NCBI GenBank assembly: GCA_900316245.1
Contig: ONCE01000009.1
Span: 23,423-87,422 of the forward strand
DNA length: 64,000 nt
Direction: 5' to 3'
From: an uncultured Bacteroidales bacterium
Lineage (GTDB): Bacteria > Bacteroidota > Bacteroidia > Bacteroidales > UBA932
Positions 47,656-59,498 of the stretch are shown here, one piece after another (position 1 is the stretch's first letter; each line of letters begins with the position of its first letter). A program made the position numbers and the translations under genes. Under the pieces are notes generated by a model, which made no database searches, had not been told where the DNA came from, and saw only the letters and a list, made by a program, of their open reading frames with translations.

Positions 47656-50096
47656 TAGCGAAGCGTGGCTCCCAGTTCAGTTTGCAGGGCGGTGAGCACG
47701 CGGTTCATAGTGCTTTCCACCTCGGTATCGGTAAGCGTGCGCTCAGGATCCTGAAGCACAAAGTTAAGGGCGTACTGCTTCTTGCCTTCGGGAATCTTCT
47801 CTCCGCGGTACACGTCAAAGAGGCTCACGCTCTTGATGAGCTTCTTGCCGGCCCGCAGGGCGCACTGACGGACGTCTGCATAGGCGACGCCTTCATTGAG
47901 CAGGAGGGCCAGGTCTCTGCGCACCTCCGGGAAGCGGGGCAGTTCCTTGAAGGAGAACTTGTCACGCTTGATGAGGGTGAACAGGACTTCCCAGTTGATC
48001 TCGGCGGCAAACACGGGCTGCTTGATGCCGAAGCGTTTGCAAACGACGGGGTTCAAGGTGCCCAGGGTGGCCAGGAGCTTGGGCTCCTTGCCGGGCAGGC
48101 AGTAGGTGATGCCCTCGGAGAAGAGGTCTGCGGGAGCGGCGCCGGTGGCCAGGCTGTTCACGTCAATGCGGTAACGGGCCATCAGGGCCTCCACATAACC
48201 CTTCAGGAGGAAGAAATTGGACTTCTGGGCGGGATTGCGCCAGGCCTTGTCCGGGGTTCCGCTGATGAACAGCGAGAAGCAGCGGTGCTCTTCATAACCG
48301 GCCAGGGTGGTGCCGTCCGTCTCGGGCAGGCGCTGATATACGGAGCCGTACTCGAAGAACTTGAGGGAGACCGCCTGACGGTTGAGGTTGTAGGCCACTA
48401 CCTCCAGACCGTTGAGCAGCAGGGTCTGCCGCATCACGTTGAGGTCGGAGCTCAGGGGGTTCACAATGTGGACGCATTTCTCGGCCGGGAAGGTCTCCAG
48501 TTTGGTATAGTAGTCCTCCTTGGTGAGGGAGTTGCTCATAGTTTCCACAAAGCCGTTGGCGGCCAGCCAGTTGGAGATGTTGTTGCGCGTGGCCTCGGGG
48601 TCCGGCTGCTGGGAAGGGTTCACGCTCATCCGCAGGTTGCCGGGCAGTTCGATGTTGTTGTAGCCGTAGATGCGGAGGATTTCTTCCACCACGTCGCACT
48701 CACGGGTTACGTCTACCATATAGGTGGGGGCTGCCACCAGGGCACCGCCGTCCCATTCCTTCACAAACTGGTAGTTGAGGCCCAGCAGAATCTTCTCGAT
48801 GGTCTTCCAGCCAATTTCCTTGCCAATGAAATGCTCGATGCGGGCATAATCCAGTTCAATCTGGGCACGGCCGATGGGCTGGGGATAAATCTCGCGGACC
48901 TTTCCAACCACCTTGCCGCCGGCCACCTCCAGGATGAGGAGGGCGGCGCGCTTGGCAGCGTACATAGCGGCTTCGGGGTCTGCTCCACGCTCGAAGCGGA
49001 AGCTGGCGTCGGTGCTCAGCTGCTGGCTCTTGGCCGTCTTGCGGATGCTCACGGGGTCAAAATAAGCGCCCTCGATGAACACGTCCACGGTGGATTCCGT
49101 TACGCCGGAATCCTCACCACCGAACACACCGGCAATGCACATAGGGCCGTCCTGGTTGGCAATGACCATATCGCAGGAAGCCAGTTTGCGGTCTACACCG
49201 TCCAGCGTGCGGATGGCCTCTCCCTGGGCAGCGCGGCGCACGATGACCTTGCCCCCAGTCTTGGCAGCGTCAAAGGTGTGCAGGGGCTGGCCCGTCTCGA
49301 AGAGCACGAAGTTGGAGATATCCACCACGTTGTTGATGGGTTTCAGGCCGATGGAAAGCAGGCGCTCCTGCAGCCACTCGGGGCTGGGGCCCACCTTCAC
49401 GCCCTTGACGGTGATGCCCACGTAACGGGGGGCGCCGGCGTTGTCCAGCACCTCCACGGGGATGGACTCGCCCTCGCCTTCCTTGAACGCATCCACGGAA
49501 GGAATGCAGAGCTGGGCGGGAATGTCCTTGCTCTTGAGGTAGCCGTACAGGTCACGGGCTACGCCGATATGGGAAGCCGCATCAATGCGGTTGGCGGTAA
49601 TTTCGTATTCAATGACAGCCTCGTCCTTGAGCTGGAGATACTCCTTGGCGGGAGTGCCTACAACGGCCTCTTCCGGCAATACCATAATGCCGGCGTGGCT
49701 GGCGCCAATGCCCAGTTCGTCTTCGGCGCAGATCATGCCGAAGCTCTCCACTCCGCGGATCTTGGACTTCTTGATCTTGAAGTCTCCGGGGAGCACGGTT
49801 CCCAGCTGGGCGAAGAGCACCTTCTGGCCGGCGGCTACGTTGGGAGCGCCGCACACTACCTGCACGGGCTCGGGGGTGCCGTCGTTCACGGTGGTTACGT
49901 GCAGGTGGTCGCTGTCCGGATGGGGCTCGCAGGTAAGGACCTGGGCCACTACCACACCCTTGAGACCGCCGGGAATCACTTCCTGCATTTCCACGCTGTC
50001 CACTTCAATACCGATGGAAGTCATAGCCTCGGCCACCTGCTCGGGGGTGAGGTCACACTTCAGATACTCCTTAAGCCAATTGTAAGATAACTTCAT
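47655..50096 (-). CDS. pheT: Phenylalanine-tRNA ligase beta subunit
   Basis: An 813-residue subunit: N-terminal tRNA-binding OB domain (about 40-150, ending around LFAQLGTVLPGDFKIKKSKI in pieces such as FKIKKSKIRGVESFGM), B3/4 editing domain (210-380), B5 domain (about 405-475), catalytic-like core and C-terminal FDX-ACB anticodon domain (about 720-813). Length is normal. pheS is not in this window. Its ATG overlaps the ftsY TGA as ATGA. Confidence 0.97.
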   Translation of the reverse strand: MKLSYNWLKEYLKCDLTPEQVAEAMTSIGIEVDSVEMQEVIPGGLKGVVVAQVLTCEPHPDSDHLHVTTVNDGTPEPVQVVCGAPNVAAGQKVLFAQLGTVLPGDFKIKKSKIRGVESFGMICAEDELGIGASHAGIMVLPEEAVVGTPAKEYLQLKDEAVIEYEITANRIDAASHIGVARDLYGYLKSKDIPAQLCIPSVDAFKEGEGESIPVEVLDNAGAPRYVGITVKGVKVGPSPEWLQERLLSIGLKPINNVVDISNFVLFETGQPLHTFDAAKTGGKVIVRRAAQGEAIRTLDGVDRKLASCDMVIANQDGPMCIAGVFGGEDSGVTESTVDVFIEGAYFDPVSIRKTAKSQQLSTDASFRFERGADPEAAMYAAKRAALLILEVAGGKVVGKVREIYPQPIGRAQIELDYARIEHFIGKEIGWKTIEKILLGLNYQFVKEWDGGALVAAPTYMVDVTRECDVVEEILRIYGYNNIELPGNLRMSVNPSQQPDPEATRNNISNWLAANGFVETMSNSLTKEDYYTKLETFPAEKCVHIVNPLSSDLNVMRQTLLLNGLEVVAYNLNRQAVSLKFFEYGSVYQRLPETDGTTLAGYEEHRCFSLFISGTPDKAWRNPAQKSNFFLLKGYVEALMARYRIDVNSLATGAAPADLFSEGITYCLPGKEPKLLATLGTLNPVVCKRFGIKQPVFAAEINWEVLFTLIKRDKFSFKELPRFPEVRRDLALLLNEGVAYADVRQCALRAGKKLIKSVSLFDVYRGEKIPEGKKQYALNFVLQDPERTLTDTEVESTMNRVLTALQTELGATLR

Positions 50097-51013
50097 TGTA
50101 TGTCTTCGAGTTTAAATAAATCTTCTACAAATTCTTTCTTGTCAAAGACCTTGAGGTCTTCGACGCCTTCTCCTATTCCCAGGAACTTGATGGGGAACTG
50201 GAACTGGTCCACGATGCCCACCACCACGCCGCCTTTGGCGCTGCCGTCCAACTTGGTCACGGCCAGGGCCGTCACATCCGTGGCCTTGGAGAACTCCCTG
50301 GCCTGGATGAAGGCGTTCTGTCCGGTGGAGGCATCCAGCACCAGCAGGACCTCGTGGGGAGCGTCCGGTACCACGCGGCGCACCACGTTGCGGATTTTGG
50401 TAAGCTCGTTCATCAGGTCCACGCGGTTGTGGAGACGCCCGGCGGTGTCAATGAGCACTACATCGGCCCCTTTGGCCACGGCGCTCTTGACCGTATCAAA
50501 GGCCACGGAGGCAGGGTCTGCGCCCATAGGCTGCTTCACGATATCGGCCCCGGCCCTTTCGGCCCAGACCGCCAGCTGGTCCACGGCGGCGGCACGGAAC
50601 GTATCGGCCGCACCAATCACCACTTTCTTGCCCTGCTTTCTGAGCATCGAGGCCAGCTTGCCTATGGTGGTGGTCTTCCCCACTCCATTCACGCCTACCA
50701 CAAGGACCACATAAGGCTTCTTGGAAAAATCGAAAGGCTGGACAGGAGCGTCATCACCCATAAGGTTGGCAATCTCGTCCCTAATGAGGGCGGTGAGTTC
50801 CTCCATATCCACGTACTTGTCCTTCTCCACGCGGTCCTGGATGTTGTCCAGGAGCTTGAGCGTGGTGTCCACACCCATATCGCTGCCCAGAAGGGCTTCC
50901 TCCAGGGCGTCCAGGATATCCTCGTCCACCTGGGACTTGCCCGAAATGGCCCTTCCCAGCTTCTGGAAGAAGTTCAAGTTGGTTTTCTTAACGCCGTTTG
51001 CAAAAATTCCCAT
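50093..51013 (-). CDS. ftsY: Signal recognition particle receptor FtsY
   Basis: A 306-residue SRP GTPase that docks ribosome-SRP complexes at the inner membrane. N-domain helices, then G1 GVNGVGKTTTIGKLA near 110, DTFRAAAVDQL, DTAGRLHN, TKLDGSAKGG and the closing GIGEGVEDLKVFD. It lacks the long acidic A-domain, as usual in this phylum. ATG 51013 is used because the TTG upstream lies within the -7 box TATATTTG. First gene of a six-gene operon. Confidence 0.96.
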   Translation of the reverse strand: MGIFANGVKKTNLNFFQKLGRAISGKSQVDEDILDALEEALLGSDMGVDTTLKLLDNIQDRVEKDKYVDMEELTALIRDEIANLMGDDAPVQPFDFSKKPYVVLVVGVNGVGKTTTIGKLASMLRKQGKKVVIGAADTFRAAAVDQLAVWAERAGADIVKQPMGADPASVAFDTVKSAVAKGADVVLIDTAGRLHNRVDLMNELTKIRNVVRRVVPDAPHEVLLVLDASTGQNAFIQAREFSKATDVTALAVTKLDGSAKGGVVVGIVDQFQFPIKFLGIGEGVEDLKVFDKKEFVEDLFKLEDIQ

Positions 51014-51019
51014 AGTCTG

Positions 51020-51027
51020 CAAATATA
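51020..51027 (-). promoter_or_regulatory. ftsY operon -7 box
   Basis: TATATTTG on the minus strand ends 6 nt before the ftsY ATG, the same near-leaderless geometry as dnaX. Confidence 0.6.
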
Positions 51028-51087
51028 CACAAAAAACCGCCCTTTAGCAAGGCGGGGGCCAAAAATGCCGAAATGTCCGACTTCCCG

Positions 51088-51139
51088 GCCACGTTGACAA
51101 AATATCGGCCTTGTAGCACGCTGGGCACGTCAACGCGGC
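51088..51139 (+). repeat. REP-like palindrome A
   Basis: A 52-bp element: GCCACGTTGAC arm, 30-nt centre containing ATCGGCC, and GTCAACGCGGC arm (one mismatch between the 11-bp arms). The centre and flanks are shared with copy B (about 75 bp of near-identity, offset 83 bp). Confidence 0.9.
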
Positions 51140-51170
51140 AAGTAAAAACGCCAAAATGTCCGAAATCCCG

Positions 51171-51222
51171 GCCACGTTGACAAAATATCGGCCTTGTAGC
51201 ACGTTGGGCGCGTCAACGCGGC
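51171..51222 (+). repeat. REP-like palindrome B, containing the helicase-tail stop codon
   Basis: The second 52-bp element, same orientation as A. Its right arm GTCAACGCGGC covers 51212-51222, so the TGA of the minus-strand helicase-tail gene (51213-51215) is part of the palindrome. Confidence 0.9.
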
Positions 51223-52823
51223 AAGAGCCAACCCTTCTCAAAAGCTCCGGGATACAGGAATTTGGACTCCCGGTCGGGGAATTTGACAATGATGTACTTG
51301 TCATCGATGGCCATCACCTCACCCAGGCCGATACTCTTGTGCGTCACGGTGTCACCAACTTGCAGATTTTCCCACGGTTGCGCCTCTTCCTGCTCAACCG
51401 GTTCAGGCATCTCTTCCGCAACCTCAGAAGCATCTTTCAACTTTGAAGTGTCTATGACAGTGTCCCAACCACCGATGAGAGTGCCAGTATGCTTGTCGAT
51501 GCCTGTGTATTCCAGGGAAGAGTCTTCGTACCGCTTGAACTTGTAGACCGCATCGTTCATCAGTTCACTGTTGAAGACACCCAAGCTCACCAGCAAACTG
51601 AAGTCTTTGAGGGTCAAGCCGGTCACTTTTCGGAACAGTTCCGGTTCCAACTGCTCAATAACATCCTTGAGACAGTATTCGCGGTAATCCGTGAGGTACA
51701 TAAAGACAGGTATACGGGTAGCGAACTTGATGAGTTTCTCCTGAATCTCTTTCCGCTTGCTCTTGTACTCCTTCTCCTCTTCGGTGAGCTGCTTCTTTTG
51801 TTTAGGCGTGAGGTCGTCACCTTTCTCCTTCTTGGTGTTCTTAACGTGCTCGGACTTGTTGATGATGGTCTCAATGTCGGAATTCAGATTGCGGAAGCCC
51901 TCAATGTTCATGAGGGCCTTCATGGCCTCGGGGTTACTCATCAGGCGCTGGAGGGTGGCATTATCAACGTTGACCAGCACAGCACTCTCCCAGCGACGAG
52001 CCAACAGTGTAGCCGTGGTTCCACTCATCGCCATATCAAGCACGCCGGCAGCGTCAATCTCCTTCATGGAAGAACCGTCGAAGGCCAGGATGGGCAGGAA
52101 CTTGATGAACTGCTCCACCTTCTTCTCCGGATTCGTCTCGTGGACATTGAGCTGGCAACTATATTCTTCTACCTGACGCAACGCTCGGTTAGGGGCAAAA
52201 TCAAAGACGTAGCACAGCGGCTTGAGAATAACTTCTTCGCCAGATTCATCCTTTGTGGTCCAGGGCGACTGTACACGAAAGGCCGCCTGGAAATAGGTCT
52301 CCGGGGAGGTGGTATTGCGCAGCATCATAATGCCTGTCCAGGGCTTTACGGTGACTCCTGTTGACAGTTTGCCACAAGACAGTGTGATGGTCTTGGTCTG
52401 CTGCGGGTCTTCCATCGCATTGTACACGGGTTCAACGGCCAAAGCGCCCATTCCCGCCTCGCTGCCAGCGGCGATAATCACCTTGTATTCGTCATAGAAG
52501 CGGTTGGATCGCTTCTGTAGTAATTTTGCCATAGCACGGCAGGCAGCCACGGATGGTAAGAACCAGTAAGTGTGCTGCAGGTAACTAAGCAGACGGGCAT
52601 CGGAGAAAGGCATAGGAGGTTTCTCTGTGCCCAATTTCAACTCGGTAACAATATTCTCCGTATAGGCTCCTCGAATTAAGTCAAGCCATTTCTGGACATA
52701 CTCCTCGTGCAGGAAATAATCATCTTCGGCCCGGAAGAACTCATTCAGGTCAAACTCGTCAAACTCTCCCTGCGAAGCAATTTCGCTGATGCTGTCCGGC
52801 ATCTGGTAGGTCAGCATGACCAT
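51213..52823 (-). pseudogene. Helicase/restriction protein, C-terminal part of a split gene
   Basis: 536 codons from ATG. The text MVMLTYQMPDSISEIA, then KTITLSCGKLSTGVTVKPW and YFQAAFRVQSPW corresponds to the second RecA-like half of a DEAD/DEAH restriction helicase (motif V/VI region). A coiled basic stretch near 315-355 and an SH3-like tail (GDTVTHKSIGLGEVMAIDD) follow. The N-terminal half is encoded upstream in another frame, so this is probably the 3' piece of a broken gene, though restart at its own ATG is possible. The protein ends LLPR, encoded by the REP-like arm. Confidence 0.75.
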
Positions 52824-53833
52824 CTTGGGTAAATCTGCTCCTCGATGAATTCGCCGGTGGAGATAGCACGGAAAGGTGTCCCGGAGAGGTAAAGATAGGC
52901 TCCGGTACGAAGCGGCATCAAACCCTCATCGTACATCTCACGGGCTTCCAGTTCTCGAACATTATCGGCATCCTCGGTGATAATCTCTCCAACCTCTTCG
53001 GCTAGTTTCAATGCGGGGTCTTTCTTGTCGTAGAAGTTCTTGGCGTTCTTACCCCAGGCCCCGTAGTGGTATTCGTCCAGGACGATGCAGTCCCAGTTTA
53101 CAGTCTGAATCCATTTGTTGGTGGCCTTGATACCACCGACATCATTTTTCCCCAAGACATCCTGGAAAGAGGCGAAACAGACAAATGGTTTGCGCTCATT
53201 GACGTAATTGAACTCCCGGTCTTCCTGCTTCTGGCAGAATAGGTCTTCTTCCCAGGCAGTCTTTACAGCAGGTTTGAAAGTCAGCACCAACACCTTCTTC
53301 CAGCCCATCTTGAGAGCAAGCTGGTAGGTGGTGAAGGTCTTGCCGAAGCGCATCTTGGCATTCCAGAGGAAGTGCGGCGTGAGGCCACGGTTGGTGGGGT
53401 CTTTCTTAAAAGCATCAAAGTAGGCCGAAGTCTTGATTACGGCGCGCTCCTGCTCCGGACGCATCGGGAAATCGTAGATGCGGTCAATCATCTTATCCTT
53501 CCCGGCGACGGCCGTAGCGATGGCCTGCTCCACTTTCTTGATGTCGCATACAAACCATTCACCCTCCGGGTTACGGATGCGGTCTTTGCGAAGGATGCGG
53601 TGGACCAACTTATCGGTGAAGGACGAGCCGTCTTTACGCATAGCAGGGCGCTTGAGAACGATCCGGTACTGGATGTTGCCGGTGAGGTTCTGCTCTTTTA
53701 CGCGAGTTTCCACGTCTCGAGTGGTATAACCGACTTTCAGCCAACCCTTATGGGCAGGATACCCTATGTGCTCATAGGCGTAGATGGTCGGGGTCTCGGC
53801 GACTTTATTCCGGAGTAGGTCTTGTGCTGCCAT
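52811..53833 (-). pseudogene. GIY-YIG-like nuclease plus DEAD helicase N-terminal half, frame-broken
   Basis: 340 codons. Residues 17-95 resemble a T5orf172/GIY-YIG domain (YAYEHIGYPAHKGWLKVGYT, then TRDVETRV). Helicase motif I AKMRFGKTFTT near 160, motif II DEYHYG near 235 and motif III YLSGTPFRA near 318 follow. The reading stops shortly after EEQIYPRWSC. The next frame resumes with LPKMVMLTYQMPD, overlapping by 13 bp. The join looks like a deletion plus frameshift between motif III and the second RecA domain. It lies 1 nt after methyltransferase 2. Confidence 0.75.
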
Positions 53834-53834
53834 A

Positions 53835-55376
53835 TTATTCCATAGGACGAATCATAGAGTCGATGAAAGCAATCTCTTCCTCTGTAAGGTCATACTTCTT
53901 GTATAGCATTTCATCGGTCCACGGATGGGAGAAATCCTGAATAGGGACCAGAGAATACACTTTCTTATATGCATTTTGTGTGTTCTTCATCATATTTACA
54001 AAATATCTAAAGAACTTGGTTCGCATATACGAGGCAACGTTTAGTGCGGTTTGCTCATCGTCATATTCTCCAATTGTCAAATATGTCATATTGCATATAG
54101 TCCCGGGGTTTGCCACGAAGGGTTTTCCAATGACAAAATACGGATAATCGCCCCTCTCTCCATATGCTTTACTAATCATCACCTTGTACTTGTCGACCGA
54201 ACTAAAATTGGTCGTTATGTACTTTCTGTCCGTGTATTGTATACCATCCTTGAGCCATCCAAAATAGTAAATCCCGACGCTATTACCTGATGGCGTCTTT
54301 GACATAAGTTTGAACATTTTTTCTACGCCATTCTCGTAGTAGTTAAGTCCATATGGGTCACGAGGGCTGACCAGTTGCTCAAAACTTTTCTCTTTATGAG
54401 CGAGAACTTTCTTTAATATACCGACCGCTTCATTCTGACGGATAAATGTATCTAATCCCTTCTCCAAGAGAGGACGGGTTGCTTTAGTGACCGTCCTGTT
54501 CCTATGGGTAAACACTTCGCAGTTTCCAGAATAATCTTTGTCCCAAAGAAAATAGCATACCCCACCAGATATGTCGATTCCAGGGAAGCATTCTTCTGAG
54601 TCGAGATAATCGTGTAAGACTCGTATCCTGCCGTCGTGAAGCATATCACTTCTAAACTTATCCAGGCCAAATCCTCCATTTAACCAACGAGCAGGGATAA
54701 TCATACATAAATACCTGGGCGCCAGTTTTATGGCCTGCTCAACAAACTTATTATAAATGGGGGTCGATTGGGATTCCACGCTTCCAGCTGTAACCATCTG
54801 ATATGGTGGGTTGCCTAATACTACGTCAAATTTCATATTGAAAAAAGATTGGGGAGAAGTCGTGTGTATAAACTGATAAGCATACTGTTCTGAAGCATCA
54901 TCTCGTTCGAAAACCTTCTGGCTCGCTCCACAGTATTTACATTTTCCGTTTTCCCATGAATGCTTCCATGAGTCATAAAGGATGTTGCCGCTTTCAGTAT
55001 TAAAATGTGAAACACTGTATTTCCCATTTGCGTGCTTGCTACAATAGAGAGAGCGACGGGTTAGATAAGAGGTAAGCTCTGTGATAGCGATTCCATAGAC
55101 CTGGGTATGCAAGATGTGGTCAATACGCTCCTGACGGTCCGGAATCTGGCTCTCTAGACCACGATCCAATCGCTTGACGATTTCCCTCAGGAAAACACCA
55201 CTTTTGGAGAATGGGTCAAGAAACGTAGTGTTCGGGTCTCTGAACAAATCTTGCGGCAACAGATCCAGCACCTTGTTCGCCAGCTCCGGCGGGGTAAAAA
55301 CCTCGTCGTTGCTCAAATTGGCAATGCAATTGAGAACGTCCGGATTGTAATTACTGTTCACCATAAGCAGCAGCAT
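53835..55376 (-). CDS. Eco57I-type DNA methyltransferase
   Basis: A 513-residue N6-adenine methyltransferase-like protein: SAM motif I FLDPFSKSGVFL near residue 52 and catalytic motif IV VVLGNPPYQ near 189. A Cys pair (CKYCG) sits near 146, and a probable target-recognition region occupies the C-terminal half. It is visibly more A/T-rich than its neighbours. It overlaps methyltransferase 1 by 26 bp; Met5 (55364) is an alternative start. Together the genes look like a restriction-modification system of the type in which a helicase-nuclease works with separate methylases. Confidence 0.85.
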   Translation of the reverse strand: MLLLMVNSNYNPDVLNCIANLSNDEVFTPPELANKVLDLLPQDLFRDPNTTFLDPFSKSGVFLREIVKRLDRGLESQIPDRQERIDHILHTQVYGIAITELTSYLTRRSLYCSKHANGKYSVSHFNTESGNILYDSWKHSWENGKCKYCGASQKVFERDDASEQYAYQFIHTTSPQSFFNMKFDVVLGNPPYQMVTAGSVESQSTPIYNKFVEQAIKLAPRYLCMIIPARWLNGGFGLDKFRSDMLHDGRIRVLHDYLDSEECFPGIDISGGVCYFLWDKDYSGNCEVFTHRNRTVTKATRPLLEKGLDTFIRQNEAVGILKKVLAHKEKSFEQLVSPRDPYGLNYYENGVEKMFKLMSKTPSGNSVGIYYFGWLKDGIQYTDRKYITTNFSSVDKYKVMISKAYGERGDYPYFVIGKPFVANPGTICNMTYLTIGEYDDEQTALNVASYMRTKFFRYFVNMMKNTQNAYKKVYSLVPIQDFSHPWTDEMLYKKYDLTEEEIAFIDSMIRPME

Positions 55377-55992
55377 TTATCTTGAGGAAATGGACAGGCG
55401 CATAGGTCTCGGCCGGAAGGTCAGAGAAAAGCCCGTCGCTTTCGTATTCACCAACGAGATAGGAGAATTCGTAGTCCCGGCGGTTGACCTTATCAGCCCC
55501 GATAAAGCTCCATTCACTGATATGAATCCACTCGTCAGGCTTGTCCACACGCTTGTAAGTGAGGGCATCGCCGTGGATGATATTCTTGGAAAGGATGTAC
55601 CGGGCCGCTTCGATGCAGTTGTCCTTGCATTTTGATTTAAAGAGGCTCTGGTATTGCTCCGTGAAGTAGTTCAGAAGACGCTCCCGACAGGCTGCGGCAT
55701 TATCGGCCAAGAGTTCGATACCGTAAATACTGGAGATGGCCCAGATGGCATCGTGCTCATACTGGAGCTGGGTATATTGCTTTGCTTTGACACGGGCCTC
55801 GCAGATGGCGAGTTTGCGGCGGAGGATTTCAATAAGGAAGTTGCCGTCTCCGCAAGCAGGTTCGAGGAAACGGGAGTCAAGCCTCTCCGTCTCCGGTTTT
55901 ACAAGGTCCAGCATGGCATTCACCTCCCGGGGATTGGTAAATACCTCCCCGTGAGCGGCCACCCGGTCCTTGGACTTGATCTGGGTGTCCAT
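55351..55992 (-). CDS. DNA methyltransferase-like protein, SAM-binding domain
   Basis: A 213-residue protein with SAM motif I FLEPACGDGNFLIEIL near residue 42 and IYGIELLADNA near 88. No NPPY motif is seen, so it is probably an accessory or regulatory methylase subunit, or a partner of methyltransferase 2. HGEVFTNPREVNAMLD at the start matches type I/ISP methylase N-termini. Its ATG lies 2 bp inside from the base of a 134-bp inverted repeat in its leader. Confidence 0.8.
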   Translation of the reverse strand: MDTQIKSKDRVAAHGEVFTNPREVNAMLDLVKPETERLDSRFLEPACGDGNFLIEILRRKLAICEARVKAKQYTQLQYEHDAIWAISSIYGIELLADNAAACRERLLNYFTEQYQSLFKSKCKDNCIEAARYILSKNIIHGDALTYKRVDKPDEWIHISEWSFIGADKVNRRDYEFSYLVGEYESDGLFSDLPAETYAPVHFLKINAAAYGEQ

Positions 55993-55993
55993 T

Positions 55994-56127
55994 CTGCGCT
56001 TTCGGTGCGCACAGGCGACTTATTCGAAAAGGCTTCCGGGCACAAAAAAAGGCATGGATGTTATTATCCATACCTGGGGCCCTAGGAAGCCCTTGCCTGA
56101 ATAAGTCACACCCACGCCAAAGCGCAG
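55994..56127. repeat. 134-bp imperfect inverted repeat in the methyltransferase leader
   Basis: The left arm starts CTGCGCTTTCGG; the right arm ends CCAAAGCGCAG. Both share GACTTATTC/GAATAAGTC and GGCTTCC/GGAAGCC blocks. The centre is a perfect 9-bp stem (GGCATGGAT/ATCCATACC with one G-U on the minus strand) around GTTATT. The arms pair with several bulges. It may be a MITE-like element or an RNA leader structure. Confidence 0.8.
56044..56074 (-). terminator. Terminator-like hairpin in the leader of the methyltransferase operon
   Basis: On the minus strand GGTATGGAT-AATAAC-ATCCATGCC is followed by seven T. It lies about 60 nt before the methyltransferase ATG and after the likely promoter, so it could attenuate the operon. 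Confidence 0.6.
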
Positions 56128-56237
56128 GCACTTGCCGACTTATCCGGTGGCTTATTGAAATTTCCTAGGTTTCAGGTAACCGAATAAATAGCTTGTGCTA
56201 TCATTAAATATGTTGCTGCAAATAGTCTTTGCGATAG

Positions 56238-56245
56238 CAAATCTA
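56238..56245 (-). promoter_or_regulatory. Probable promoter of the methyltransferase/helicase operon
   Basis: TAGATTTG on the minus strand fits TAnnTTTG, with a T-rich -33 region about 20 nt upstream. It implies a leader of about 240 nt holding the large inverted repeat. The rest of 56128-56340 is A/T-rich and has no gene. Confidence 0.5.
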
Positions 56246-56340
56246 CAAAAAATCATTAAAAACAGCAAAAAGCACCCTAAAACAACACATTGTTTTTTAC
56301 GATTCTTGCCTTTACAGAAACTACTATTTACCTTGGGCAT

Positions 56341-57261
56341 ATGAAGGAATCGTATCATATCTGTTTCACCTCACACGAAGAGGTAATGTTCAGGGATCTG
56401 GAAGACCATGGTGTATTCCTGAACCTCCTGGCACTCCGTGCTTTTTCCATGGATACGGAAATCGTGGTAGATGCCGAGATGTCTACACACGTCCACCTGG
56501 GTATCTTTTCAGGAACCCCGCAGCAATTCGCCGCCGCCCTCCGCATGTCTTATTCCAAATACTTCAACAAGAAGTATGACCGCAAAGGACGGATGGGAGA
56601 AAAGTACACCTTCCAGCTAAAGATAGAAGGACACGTTCACCAGATGATCTTTCAGAACTATGTGATACGCAATGGCCTGCACCACGCCGCATCGGCCACA
56701 GCCTTAGGATATCCTTTCTGCTGCGCGCGGGATTTGTTTCAGGAAGATATTGGCCTGGTCACGGACTTGCCGGCAAAGATGTCACGGGAAGACATCCACG
56801 TCTTCCTCCCCCGCCACGCGGAGTTTCCAGACCACTATCAGATGAACGAACACGGCGTATTTATCCGCCGCAGTTTTATGGAAATCCGACGGGCCGAACA
56901 ATACTACGGATCTCCCCGCAATTACCTGTACCAGATCAACCGTCTCACGGACGAGAGCTGGACCCGTGAACAGCTTAACGATGGCACCGGACTCCCCGTC
57001 ACCATTCAGTCCATTGAGCCGGCCGACGAAAAAAGCATCACCCAGATGCTTAAAAACGAATCGGGCCGATGCTTCAACCGCACCCGTATGCAAGACTTGG
57101 ACGTTTGCCGACTGATTGACGGGGACTTCCTACCTTCCTACGGTGCCACTTCCATCTACCAGCTCACGGAATCTCAGAAAAAAGCCATCGCACAAACGCT
57201 CTATTTTGAGTATCATCTTCCGGAGGGGCAGATCAAAAGGTGTTTGGCTTTGCCGCGTTGA
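56341..57261 (+). CDS. REP-associated tyrosine transposase (Y1/HUH, RAYT-like)
   Basis: A 306-residue protein with HUH motif MSTHVHLGIF near residue 48 and the following amphipathic helix with FQNYVIRNGLHHAAS, whose Tyr fits the single catalytic Tyr of IS200/RAYT enzymes. RAYTs are single-copy, domesticated-looking transposases that act on nearby REP palindromes. Two such palindromes follow directly, and the gene's last codons (TTG-CCG-CGT-TGA) are part of the first. The in-frame TTG start at 56290 is rejected in favour of ATG 56341. The C-terminal 100 residues are unrecognised. Confidence 0.85.
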   Translation: MKESYHICFTSHEEVMFRDLEDHGVFLNLLALRAFSMDTEIVVDAEMSTHVHLGIFSGTPQQFAAALRMSYSKYFNKKYDRKGRMGEKYTFQLKIEGHVHQMIFQNYVIRNGLHHAASATALGYPFCCARDLFQEDIGLVTDLPAKMSREDIHVFLPRHAEFPDHYQMNEHGVFIRRSFMEIRRAEQYYGSPRNYLYQINRLTDESWTREQLNDGTGLPVTIQSIEPADEKSITQMLKNESGRCFNRTRMQDLDVCRLIDGDFLPSYGATSIYQLTESQKKAIAQTLYFEYHLPEGQIKRCLALPR

Positions 57262-57303
57262 CGCGCCCAGCGTACCAAAAAGCCGGTTTTGTGTCAACGC
57301 GGC
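57252..57303 (-). repeat. REP-like palindrome C, containing the transposase stop codon
   Basis: A 52-bp element with perfect 11-bp arms GCCGCGTTGAC/GTCAACGCGGC. Judged by the GGGCGC-side of the centre it is inverted relative to A and B. The TGA at 57259-57261 ends the transposase gene. Confidence 0.9.
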
Positions 57304-57334
57304 AGCGAAAACCGTCCTTTCGGCCCAAAACTTT

Positions 57335-57386
57335 GCCACGTTGACGCGCCTGGCGCAGTAGAACGCCGTTTTCTTGTCAACGCGGC
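57335..57386 (-). repeat. REP-like palindrome D
   Basis: The fourth 52-bp element, same orientation as C, with arms GCCACGTTGAC/GTCAACGCGGC. It lies between the transposase gene and asnA, and its hairpin may also end transcription. Confidence 0.88.
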
Positions 57387-57424
57387 AAGAAGGGCAAAGC
57401 ACCCCGAAGAAATGAAGCGCTTGA

Positions 57425-58435
57425 CTAGGCGAGTTCGATGCCGGCGGCGTGGCAGGCTTTGCGCATATCGGCCGGCCAGATGGAAGACTGGATCTCCCCT
57501 ATGTGCGCCTTCCGCAGCAGGAACATACAAAGGCGGGACTGGCCGATACCGCCGCCGATGGTCTGCGGCAGCTTTCCTTCCAGAAGAAGCTTGTGGAAAT
57601 ACAGTTCCTCCTTCCAGAGCTGGTCCCTTTCCGCCAGCTGCCGATGAAGGGCTTCGGCATCCACGCGGATGCCCATACTGGAAATCTCAAAGGCGCTGTC
57701 CAGCACCGGATTCCAAAGCAGGATATCGCCGTTCAGGCTCCAATCGTCGTAGTCGGCGGCGCGGCCGTCGTGGGCTTCTCCGTTGGAGAGCTTGCCGCCG
57801 ATGCCCTGGATGAACACGGCTCCATACTTCTTGGCAATGGCATTCTCCCGCTCCTTGGCACTAAGGCCGGGGTAGCGCTGCAGGAGCTCTTCGGCCTTAA
57901 TGAAATATATCTCCTCCGGCAGCATAGGGGTAATCTGGGGAAACTCTACATAGAGCTTGTTTTCCGTTACCTTCACGGCCTCGTAGATGCGGCGGACGGT
58001 CTTGTACAGGAAAGCTTCGTTCCTTTCTTCAGGCAGCATCACCTTCTCCCAGTCCCACTGGTCCACATAGATGGAATGGATGTTGTCCAGGTCTTCGTCG
58101 GGCCGAAGGGCGTTCATATCCGTATAGATGCCGCGGCCGGGGACCACTCCAAGTTCGGCCAACTTGAGGCGCTTCCACTTGGCCAGGGAATGAACTACCT
58201 CGGCGGGGGCGTCTCCCATGCTTTTCACGGGGAACTTAACCGGGCGCTCCACGCCGTTAAGGTCGTCGTTGAGGCCCTGCCCGGAGAGCACCATCATAGG
58301 GGCCGTCACACGCAGCAGAGCCAGCTGGGCGCTCAGGTTTTCCTGAAACATATCTTTTACAGCCTTGATGGCCTTCTCCGTCTGCTCGACGCTACCAAGC
58401 AGATTCCGGTAATTTTTGGGGATATACACTGACAT
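57425..58435 (-). CDS. asnA: Aspartate-ammonia ligase (asparagine synthetase A)
   Basis: A 336-residue class II aminoacyl-tRNA-synthetase-like enzyme making asparagine from aspartate, ammonia and ATP. Family phrases: IPKNYRNLLGSVEQTEKAI at the start, YTDMNALRPDEDLDNIHS, YVDQWDWEKV, and C-terminal TIGGGIGQSRLCMFLL (motif 3). Upstream in-frame codons fall within the AraC-type gene, so MSVYIPKNY is the start. It follows that regulator by 13 nt and is probably co-transcribed. Confidence 0.96.
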   Translation of the reverse strand: MSVYIPKNYRNLLGSVEQTEKAIKAVKDMFQENLSAQLALLRVTAPMMVLSGQGLNDDLNGVERPVKFPVKSMGDAPAEVVHSLAKWKRLKLAELGVVPGRGIYTDMNALRPDEDLDNIHSIYVDQWDWEKVMLPEERNEAFLYKTVRRIYEAVKVTENKLYVEFPQITPMLPEEIYFIKAEELLQRYPGLSAKERENAIAKKYGAVFIQGIGGKLSNGEAHDGRAADYDDWSLNGDILLWNPVLDSAFEISSMGIRVDAEALHRQLAERDQLWKEELYFHKLLLEGKLPQTIGGGIGQSRLCMFLLRKAHIGEIQSSIWPADMRKACHAAGIELA

Positions 58436-58448
58436 AAGAGGGAGACTA

Positions 58449-59498
58449 TTATTCAAACTTAGCCTTGACGGCGTAATAGGCCTGGCGGGAATTGAAGCCG
58501 CTTTCCAGCACGGCTTCCTGCAGCGTGGCCGAAGGATGCGCCTTCTGATACGCCTCCACGTGCTGCAGCCGCAGACGGTTGACATAGGGGAAGAAGCCGC
58601 CGAATTCGCTCTTGAACAGGCCGGCAATGTAAGAACGGCTGTAGCCACAGCGGTCGGCCACGTCCTGGATGGTCAGGTGCGCGTCCAGAAAGGCCTCCCG
58701 CTCCACCACCACGGTATGGATGGCCGATAGGATTTGGGCCGAAGGAGCCTTCCTGACAGGTTCGGCCTCGGGTTTGTCTTCGGGCTCTTCTTCCAAAGGA
58801 CGCCTACGGTGCGGATGCAGGACAGCAATGATAAAGAGGACCTGGGATGCAGCCAGAAGCAGCATAATGACCGCCAGCAGAACGGGGCTGCCAACCAGGG
58901 CTCCCAGCCAGCACAGGGCCATATTCACCACAACCATCACCATGGAACGGCGGGCAAAGATCACCGGAAAATCGGCCGGATTGGAAAACTCGTCTTCGTC
59001 AAAGCTCTTGGCCCAGCTCAAAACCAACAACAGGGCGGTCACACAGATACCGGTAATCAGGATGCCCAGAGCGTACATCAACCACAGGGAGATTCCACCT
59101 ATCTGATCTCCCGGCACCAGCGCCAGCACATCGGCCGCCAAAATGCAAACGACCAGGGGCAGGCCGATAAGAAGCATCGGAGCGCGCCATTTGCGCCACT
59201 CCATCACACCTCCGAAATAGGAAAACTCCAGGACGGTGAACTGGAACAGGGTAAAGGGGAGGAAAAAAAGCCGCGCCAGGAACCAGGCATCCGGGCTCGT
59301 CGGGTTCATTACATAGGGCAGAAGAGCCAACGAGCTCAGGAAAACGACTATCACATACGGACGGCCGGGATAGTAATACCGGGGGTTTCGGTTATAGGGC
59401 CGGCACATATGAAACCAGCGTACCGCCGCCATCGAAAGACCCACGGCCACGAACATGGCCGCCGCCACACCACAGAAATATGAGAGTGAAAAAGGCAT
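58449..59498 (-). CDS. Membrane-embedded AraC-family transcription regulator
   Basis: A 349-residue protein with about seven hydrophobic helices in residues 1-235, an acidic linker (EEEPEDKPEAEPV) and an AraC/XylS double helix-turn-helix at about 255-349 (LTIQDVADRCGYSRSYIAGL, then LQEAVLESGFNSRQAYYAVK). The membrane part presumably senses an envelope or small-molecule signal and tethers the DNA-binding domain. It is divergent from the fimbrillin operon. A TATATTTG box ends 9 nt before ATG 59498; the upstream TTG is inside that box. Confidence 0.88.
   Translation of the reverse strand: MPFSLSYFCGVAAAMFVAVGLSMAAVRWFHMCRPYNRNPRYYYPGRPYVIVVFLSSLALLPYVMNPTSPDAWFLARLFFLPFTLFQFTVLEFSYFGGVMEWRKWRAPMLLIGLPLVVCILAADVLALVPGDQIGGISLWLMYALGILITGICVTALLLVLSWAKSFDEDEFSNPADFPVIFARRSMVMVVVNMALCWLGALVGSPVLLAVIMLLLAASQVLFIIAVLHPHRRRPLEEEPEDKPEAEPVRKAPSAQILSAIHTVVVEREAFLDAHLTIQDVADRCGYSRSYIAGLFKSEFGGFFPYVNRLRLQHVEAYQKAHPSATLQEAVLESGFNSRQAYYAVKAKFE

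Follow-up and report, generated by a model that had tools for sequence, protein, structure and literature searches.

The stretch of DNA analysed here, referred to as the window, is 64,000 nucleotides long and comes from an uncultured Bacteroidales bacterium (contig ONCE01000009.1 of assembly GCA_900316245.1; contig C16 of genome G000 in this analysis). Between its ftsY and asnA genes lie a gene for a Y1 HUH transposase resembling the REP-associated tyrosine transposases (RAYTs; REP, repetitive extragenic palindrome), a decayed restriction-modification (RM) operon with a structured RNA leader, and four palindromes of 52 bp. An earlier note, made from the letters alone, had placed the palindromes as two pairs in opposite orientation around two methyltransferases, a broken helicase-nuclease and the transposase, with ftsY and asnA outside, and each of these points was confirmed, including the coordinates. 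On comparison with relatives, largely rumen metagenome-assembled genomes, the locus is, as far as can be judged from sequence, a REPtron belonging to a divergent clade of RAYTs, with units like REPINs (REP doublets forming hairpins). The features are:

50093-51022, minus strand: flanking gene ftsY, identified by homologue search
51088-51139, no strand: palindrome A (left outer)
51171-51222, no strand: palindrome B (left inner), containing the stop codon of the helicase open reading frame (ORF)
51213-52823, minus strand: second ORF of a split T5orf172/helicase gene, a single ORF in the related loci L013 and L103
52811-53833, minus strand: first ORF of the split gene, with T5orf172 and a ResIII-like part
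53835-55376, minus strand: Eco57I-type methyltransferase
55351-55992, minus strand: MmeI-like methyltransferase, slightly below the Pfam cut-off
56041-56183, minus strand: structured RNA leader (covariance-model score 141 bits) preceding the RM genes and carrying a terminator hairpin
56341-57261, plus strand: RAYT-like Y1 HUH transposase, its stop codon within palindrome C
57252-57303, no strand: palindrome C (right inner)
57335-57386, no strand: palindrome D (right outer)
57425-58648, minus strand: flanking gene asnA (ORF as listed; the real start is internal to it)

The palindromes form two tandem pairs, A/B and C/D, with a start-to-start step of 83 bp within each, and the inner sequences of the two pairs are more similar when compared inverted (0.71) than direct (0.46). 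A looser pattern for the arms, run over the whole genome of the window (2.24 Mb, 35 contigs), found these four palindromes only, and in the same genome neither the reversed control of that pattern nor a tight pattern for the inner sequence gave a match. Folded as single DNA strands, only palindrome C (z -3.8) and the C-D stretch (z -3.0) showed a clear excess of stability relative to shuffled sequences; A, B and the A-B stretch were not clearly more stable than shuffles. The helicase gene, split in the window, is unbroken in its homologues at L013 (920 aa) and L103 (907 aa). The RM operon and the transposase gene are separated by the leader RNA. Separate from the palindrome pairs, the 5' region of the RAYT (56251-56310) carries a conserved inverted repeat, A-rich in the left arm and T-rich in the right, which is found at the same place in many RAYT loci and could possibly serve in RAYT self-regulation.

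The transposase and its palindromes

The transposase has 306 residues, and His50, His52 and Tyr107 are invariant in all 29 aligned transposases (L116, which has an internal stop, was left out of the alignment). None of Pfam (E 0.001), NCBIfam and PADLOC gave a match to the window protein, and no relative was found in a sequence search of the PDB; among the 29 relatives Pfam Y1_Tnp was matched once, with an E value of 0.067. The 30 best PDB matches of an AlphaFold model (mean predicted local distance difference test score 93.4) are all Y1 transposases, among them IS200/IS605 transposases and the E. coli RAYT, one only reaching E < 0.001. The E. coli RAYT (4er8) ranks third and gives the longest alignment of these 30. 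Going by the model, this is a Y1 HUH protein that is RAYT-like, as the earlier note had proposed, and divergent. The genome of the window holds five transposase matches at E up to 0.001, with two close members only. These are 64% identical, where an IS200/IS605 insertion sequence would be expected to have near-identical copies in one genome, and this identity was rejected. By inspection, a GTAG-type tetranucleotide at the hairpin foot is absent from all four window palindromes.

An automatic search found a downstream palindrome pair in 36 of 61 RAYT rows, with a step of 73-93 bp, mostly 80-85. The arms are lineage-specific and differ between RAYT lineages. A single arm motif was used to test each locus, with 23 motifs picked by eye. 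Of the 41 close RAYTs tested in the genus (at least 48% identity), at least 36 have palindromes downstream, 33 upstream and at least 30 in both places; the first and last values are lower bounds because the stops of L018, L106 and L113, which also have downstream palindromes, were misplaced in counting. The corresponding numbers for the 11 distant RAYTs are eight, seven and seven, and foreign arms, used as a control, matched in 9 of 102 trials. These counts exclude the duplicates L030, L104 and L108, and L119 (RAYT in two pieces), as well as L096, L097, L098, L099, L100 and L102, which have no testable arm motif. The proposed link between palindromes and transposase is borne out by these cognate repeats. 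The inverted arrangement of the window, on the other hand, is a minority form: where palindromes flank on both sides (30 loci), they are direct in 22 and inverted in 8, which rules out inverted flanks as a hallmark of RAYT loci. Identity with integron attC sites was also rejected, the arms being unlike the core-site consensus (compared by eye).

The number of palindrome copies per genome ranges widely (37 in G178, 12 in G338, eight in G019, five in G333, four in the window genome, all at the locus, two in G289 and none in G345). The family is, to judge from these matches, dispersed in relatives, and the result that the earlier note would have counted against itself, the element at unrelated sites, applies in part: to relatives and not to the window genome. 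Arrays of palindrome units with a constant step of ~82-93 bp lie beside the RAYTs of L086 (up to ~15 units), L114 and L015, and in G178 such arrays (contigs C8, C20 and C33) are found also on contigs other than that of the RAYT.

RM cassettes and their leader RNA

Two unrelated RM types adjoin RAYTs at five sites (ftsY, GH92, s30, dnaE and uvrA), and every site has RM-free members. RM1 consists of the MmeI-like and Eco57I-type methyltransferases with the T5orf172/helicase and is RAYT-linked in the window, L013 and L103; RM2 consists of a GmrSD/DUF262-HNH nuclease with an EcoRI-type methylase and is RAYT-linked in L017, L018, L021, L022, L025, L031, L106 and L174, the RAYT of the last being seen only as a piece at a contig end. 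RM domains were tested in L025 and L103. The RM genes are divergent from the RAYT, in the same position and orientation, in every RAYT-linked copy. Their stop codon falls within a palindrome or at most 8 nt from one in 9 of the 11 copies (not in L022 and L103). At RAYT-less RM2 loci a palindrome at the RM stop was judged by eye to be present in one of 14 testable cases (L165, at the GH92 site); L167, where the sequence ends 9 nt past the RM stop, was excluded, and L171 has a hairpin of a different type ~15 nt from the stop.

Both cassettes are also common away from RAYTs. Across 400 genomes, 15 of 23 RM2 copies (at least 81% identity) and 15 of 18 RM1 entries (at least 79% identity, four of the 18 being partial) lack an adjoining RAYT of the window family, which the remaining eight and three have. 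Conversely, 10 of the 41 close RAYTs matched over nearly their full length have an RM cassette, the two types together amounting to ~41 occurrences in these genomes. On a rough expectation far below one, which assumes ~2000 genes per genome and is an estimate rather than a computed value, RM cassettes would be housed beside RAYTs more often than chance.

The cassettes themselves vary. The first 150 residues of the RM2 methylases are 91-99% identical while overall identity is only 67-78% in most pairs, and the window Eco57I-type methylase has 49-59% identity to that of L103 over 54000-54800; the target-recognition parts appear from these comparisons to have been exchanged. An MntA-like nucleotidyltransferase antitoxin gene lies within the RM1 operon of L013 (L013:5128-5448; below the NCBIfam cut-off; PADLOC PDC-S09). 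A relic of RM1 at L177:8249-8881 keeps the methylase's first 77 residues next to the last part of the helicase, with the leader present and no RAYT in the stretch.

RM1 and RM2 share a structured RNA leader of ~145 nt, its motif missing at 6 of the 39 methylase starts examined. RNAalifold gives 37 pairs, 16 of them with changes on both sides, and 96.4% of cells pair, compared with 88.5% for shuffles and 32-44% after sliding. Tested on the same alignment from which the structure derives, four of five measures lie above all 500 shuffles; the exception is the number of pair types, which 192 of the 500 reach. Helix P1 is formed in 29 of 29 sequences, with 6-9 bp (mean 6.8) in 16 forms, and the highest mean over 500 partner shuffles is 5.2. 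P1 and the foot of a terminator-like hairpin, which has a U run, overlap, and in the minimum-energy fold of the window (z -5.2) the 3' strand of P4 pairs instead with a repeat close to the start codon, so that, going by these predicted folds, the leader is likely to adopt alternative states.

No match to the leader was found in Rfam 15 at E up to 1 (window 50900-57500; L025, L174 and L182). A narrow pattern found it in 6 of 400 genomes and missed the window's own copy, and a covariance model was used instead. This places the leader in 38 of 141 genomes of the genus, the 12 best matches all being at RM loci that also appeared elsewhere in this analysis. At six of 19 further loci (within L203-L221) the leader lies ahead of a methylase or an ORF resembling one (by Pfam in L209, as known RM copies in L206 and L211, and by eye in L203, L207 and L208); at the rest it stands before other ORFs or ORFs of unclear kind, one of them CsgG type (L215). 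The leader is not part of the RAYT element because it is present at RAYT-less RM loci; it is a candidate for a new regulatory RNA.

Probable housing rather than carriage

We favour, at somewhat better than even odds (about 0.55), a reading in which the locus is a REPtron where RM cassettes settle by recombination and not as cargo transposed by the RAYT. The Y1 transposase gene would be largely sedentary, with tandem pairs of REPIN-like palindromes of its own on either side, and RM cassettes (promoter, RNA leader and RM genes) would come to rest, and be exchanged, in the interval from the upstream pair to the RAYT leader. The RM genes would enter by recombination rather than through catalysis by the RAYT; recombination between direct flanking palindromes would remove the element, and between inverted ones it could turn it round. 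The RAYT houses but probably does not carry the cassette, because RAYTs mostly group by site, DUF262 is closer between loci than the RAYT and many RM copies have no RAYT. In a tree of 58 RAYTs, with site labels assigned in this analysis, grouping by genomic site is seen for ftsY (five rows), GH92 (four), s30 (three), dnaE (two) and the L085 site (three). At four-fold sites, which are near saturation, RAYT pairs are 29-51% and DUF262 pairs 37-66% identical, DUF262 being the closer in 13 of 15 common locus pairs. The earlier suggestion that the RAYT might carry or mark a whole defence cassette therefore survives in part: RM recurs in RAYT loci at five sites, and carriage as a unit is unsupported.

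The ftsY-asnA site gives some indication of how such a locus may come and go. In L013 and L014 the RAYT lies between asnA and ftsY and is directed towards ftsY; in the window it is directed away and asnA is also turned, so that more than one inversion is needed between them. The empty junction that the earlier note had suggested seeking is present in G005 (L191), with a gap of ~140 bp and one palindrome, and the flanks are 94.8% and 97.2% identical to those of L014. The palindrome is a hybrid, its left 23 nt matching the left outer copy of L014 at 23 of 23 positions and its right 28 nt the right outer copy at 27 of 28. As read from these matches, recombination between direct outer repeats explains the empty site; insertion into a pre-existing palindrome is an alternative account of it. 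At L015 a remnant of the first methyltransferase gene is retained.

The window and L103 are 96-100% identical over ~56200-57800, a stretch with the RAYT, the right pair and the beginning of asnA (falling to 90% in the last block), and 49-90% identical through the RM cassette, with a sharp switch near 56200. The RM end of L103 faces aroC, as in the RAYT-less L185. G289 holds two different RM1 copies, L103 and L180, and L103 joins aroC to the RAYT and asnA without the left palindrome pair. It may be a recombinant or an assembly chimera.

Several points weigh against the favoured reading. The possible chimerism of L103 is one, as are the choice of arm motifs by eye and the saturation at the four-fold sites, where DUF262 is the more diverged in 2 of the 15 pairs. 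Eight uvrA rows are scattered in the RAYT tree, and L113, also labelled as an ftsY site, is placed elsewhere in it. The activity of the RAYT on the window palindromes is itself something that we infer. At ~12 loci the upstream palindrome and the RAYT have other genes between them, in gaps of 576-1330 bp, so the interval is not exclusive to RM. Finally, the constant position and orientation of the RM genes also fits a single ancestral capture of RM by the RAYT locus, after which the unit spread to several sites, RM was often lost and its genes were swapped through the shared leader by homologous recombination. This would also accommodate the remnant at L015 and the switch point of L103 at the leader edge, but RM-bearing RAYTs are scattered over the tree, the two RM types are unrelated and RAYT-less copies are many, and we consider it rather unlikely. 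It seems doubtful that REPtrons of this clade trap RM, with RAYT nicks at palindrome edges creating joins where arriving modules are held between the upstream pair and the RAYT gene, and with the leader acting as a riboswitch-like attenuator that restrains RM expression during settling in a new host. Just as doubtful is ordinary bracketing, in which palindrome pairs insert behind any neighbour of a RAYT and RM merely tolerates the place: the non-RM genes in the interval and the dispersal of palindromes in relatives would be expected from it, but not RM1 or RM2 beside 10 of 41 close RAYTs given their rarity. Movement by the RAYT of pair, RM, RAYT and pair as one composite transposon is improbable. 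In its favour, the block as a whole is enclosed by palindromes, the difference at the empty site runs exactly from palindrome to palindrome (seen for an RM-free element) and RAYT lineages are mixed near uvrA. Against it, the arms go with the RAYT of a given site rather than with the RM, the same cargo with the same ends was not found at different sites, RAYTs mostly group by site and RAYT-less RM copies are common.

The benefit of RAYTs to their hosts is unclear. A clade whose loci have housed RM repeatedly connects domesticated transposases with defence, and does so at sites open to sampling. From the hybrid palindrome it can be seen how a locus of this sort can disappear, or arrive, cleanly. 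Mobile RM genes face a genuine difficulty in controlling their expression once they have entered a new host, and the leader, which is common to two unrelated RM types and is also found before other genes, offers a candidate for a new regulatory RNA that can be tested.

Comparison with known systems

A literature search on RAYT, REPtron or REP together with RM found no description of such a locus, and one on RM with riboswitches or attenuation none of such a leader, most subscription papers lying outside both searches. The locus is of the known REPtron kind; its variant features may be new, and so may the leader RNA.

In the movement of RM linked to insertion sequences (PMC3031569), RM genes are likewise found in connection with a transposable element; the transposase of the window clade, in contrast, looks sedentary. 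TIRtrons (PMC3733652) also have RAYT-type genes between long repeats that are not GTAG REPs, but in the window clade the units are themselves palindromes and the flanks are mostly direct. The likeness to REPINs (PMC3116915) lies in two inverted repeats per unit, tandem units that include flanking sequence and a distinct cluster beside each RAYT, whereas the fixed step of ~82 bp and the clusters on both sides of the gene set the window clade apart.

TnpAY1 subclass 2.6, or RAYT group 5, is mostly from Bacteroidetes and has atypical flanking secondary structures with copies elsewhere, as here; with a median of 179 aa and another Y motif, it is set apart by its description (PMC6006769). More generally, the motifs and length of the window transposase differ from those of the subclasses tabulated in that paper. 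Closest in kind are the REPtrons (RAYT/TnpAREP with flanking REPs), which share a Y1 HUH protein with cognate palindromes bordering the gene, repeats that appear dispersed in some genomes and no sign of movement as a unit (PMC6006769, PMC8266576). The window clade differs from them in its motifs (STHxH and a Y-x-x-RNG type in place of NHxH and YIxxNP), in a length of ~306 aa and palindromes without the GTAG foot (PMC6006769), and in paired palindromes ~82 bp apart with RM cassettes inside (PMC6006769, PMC8266576).

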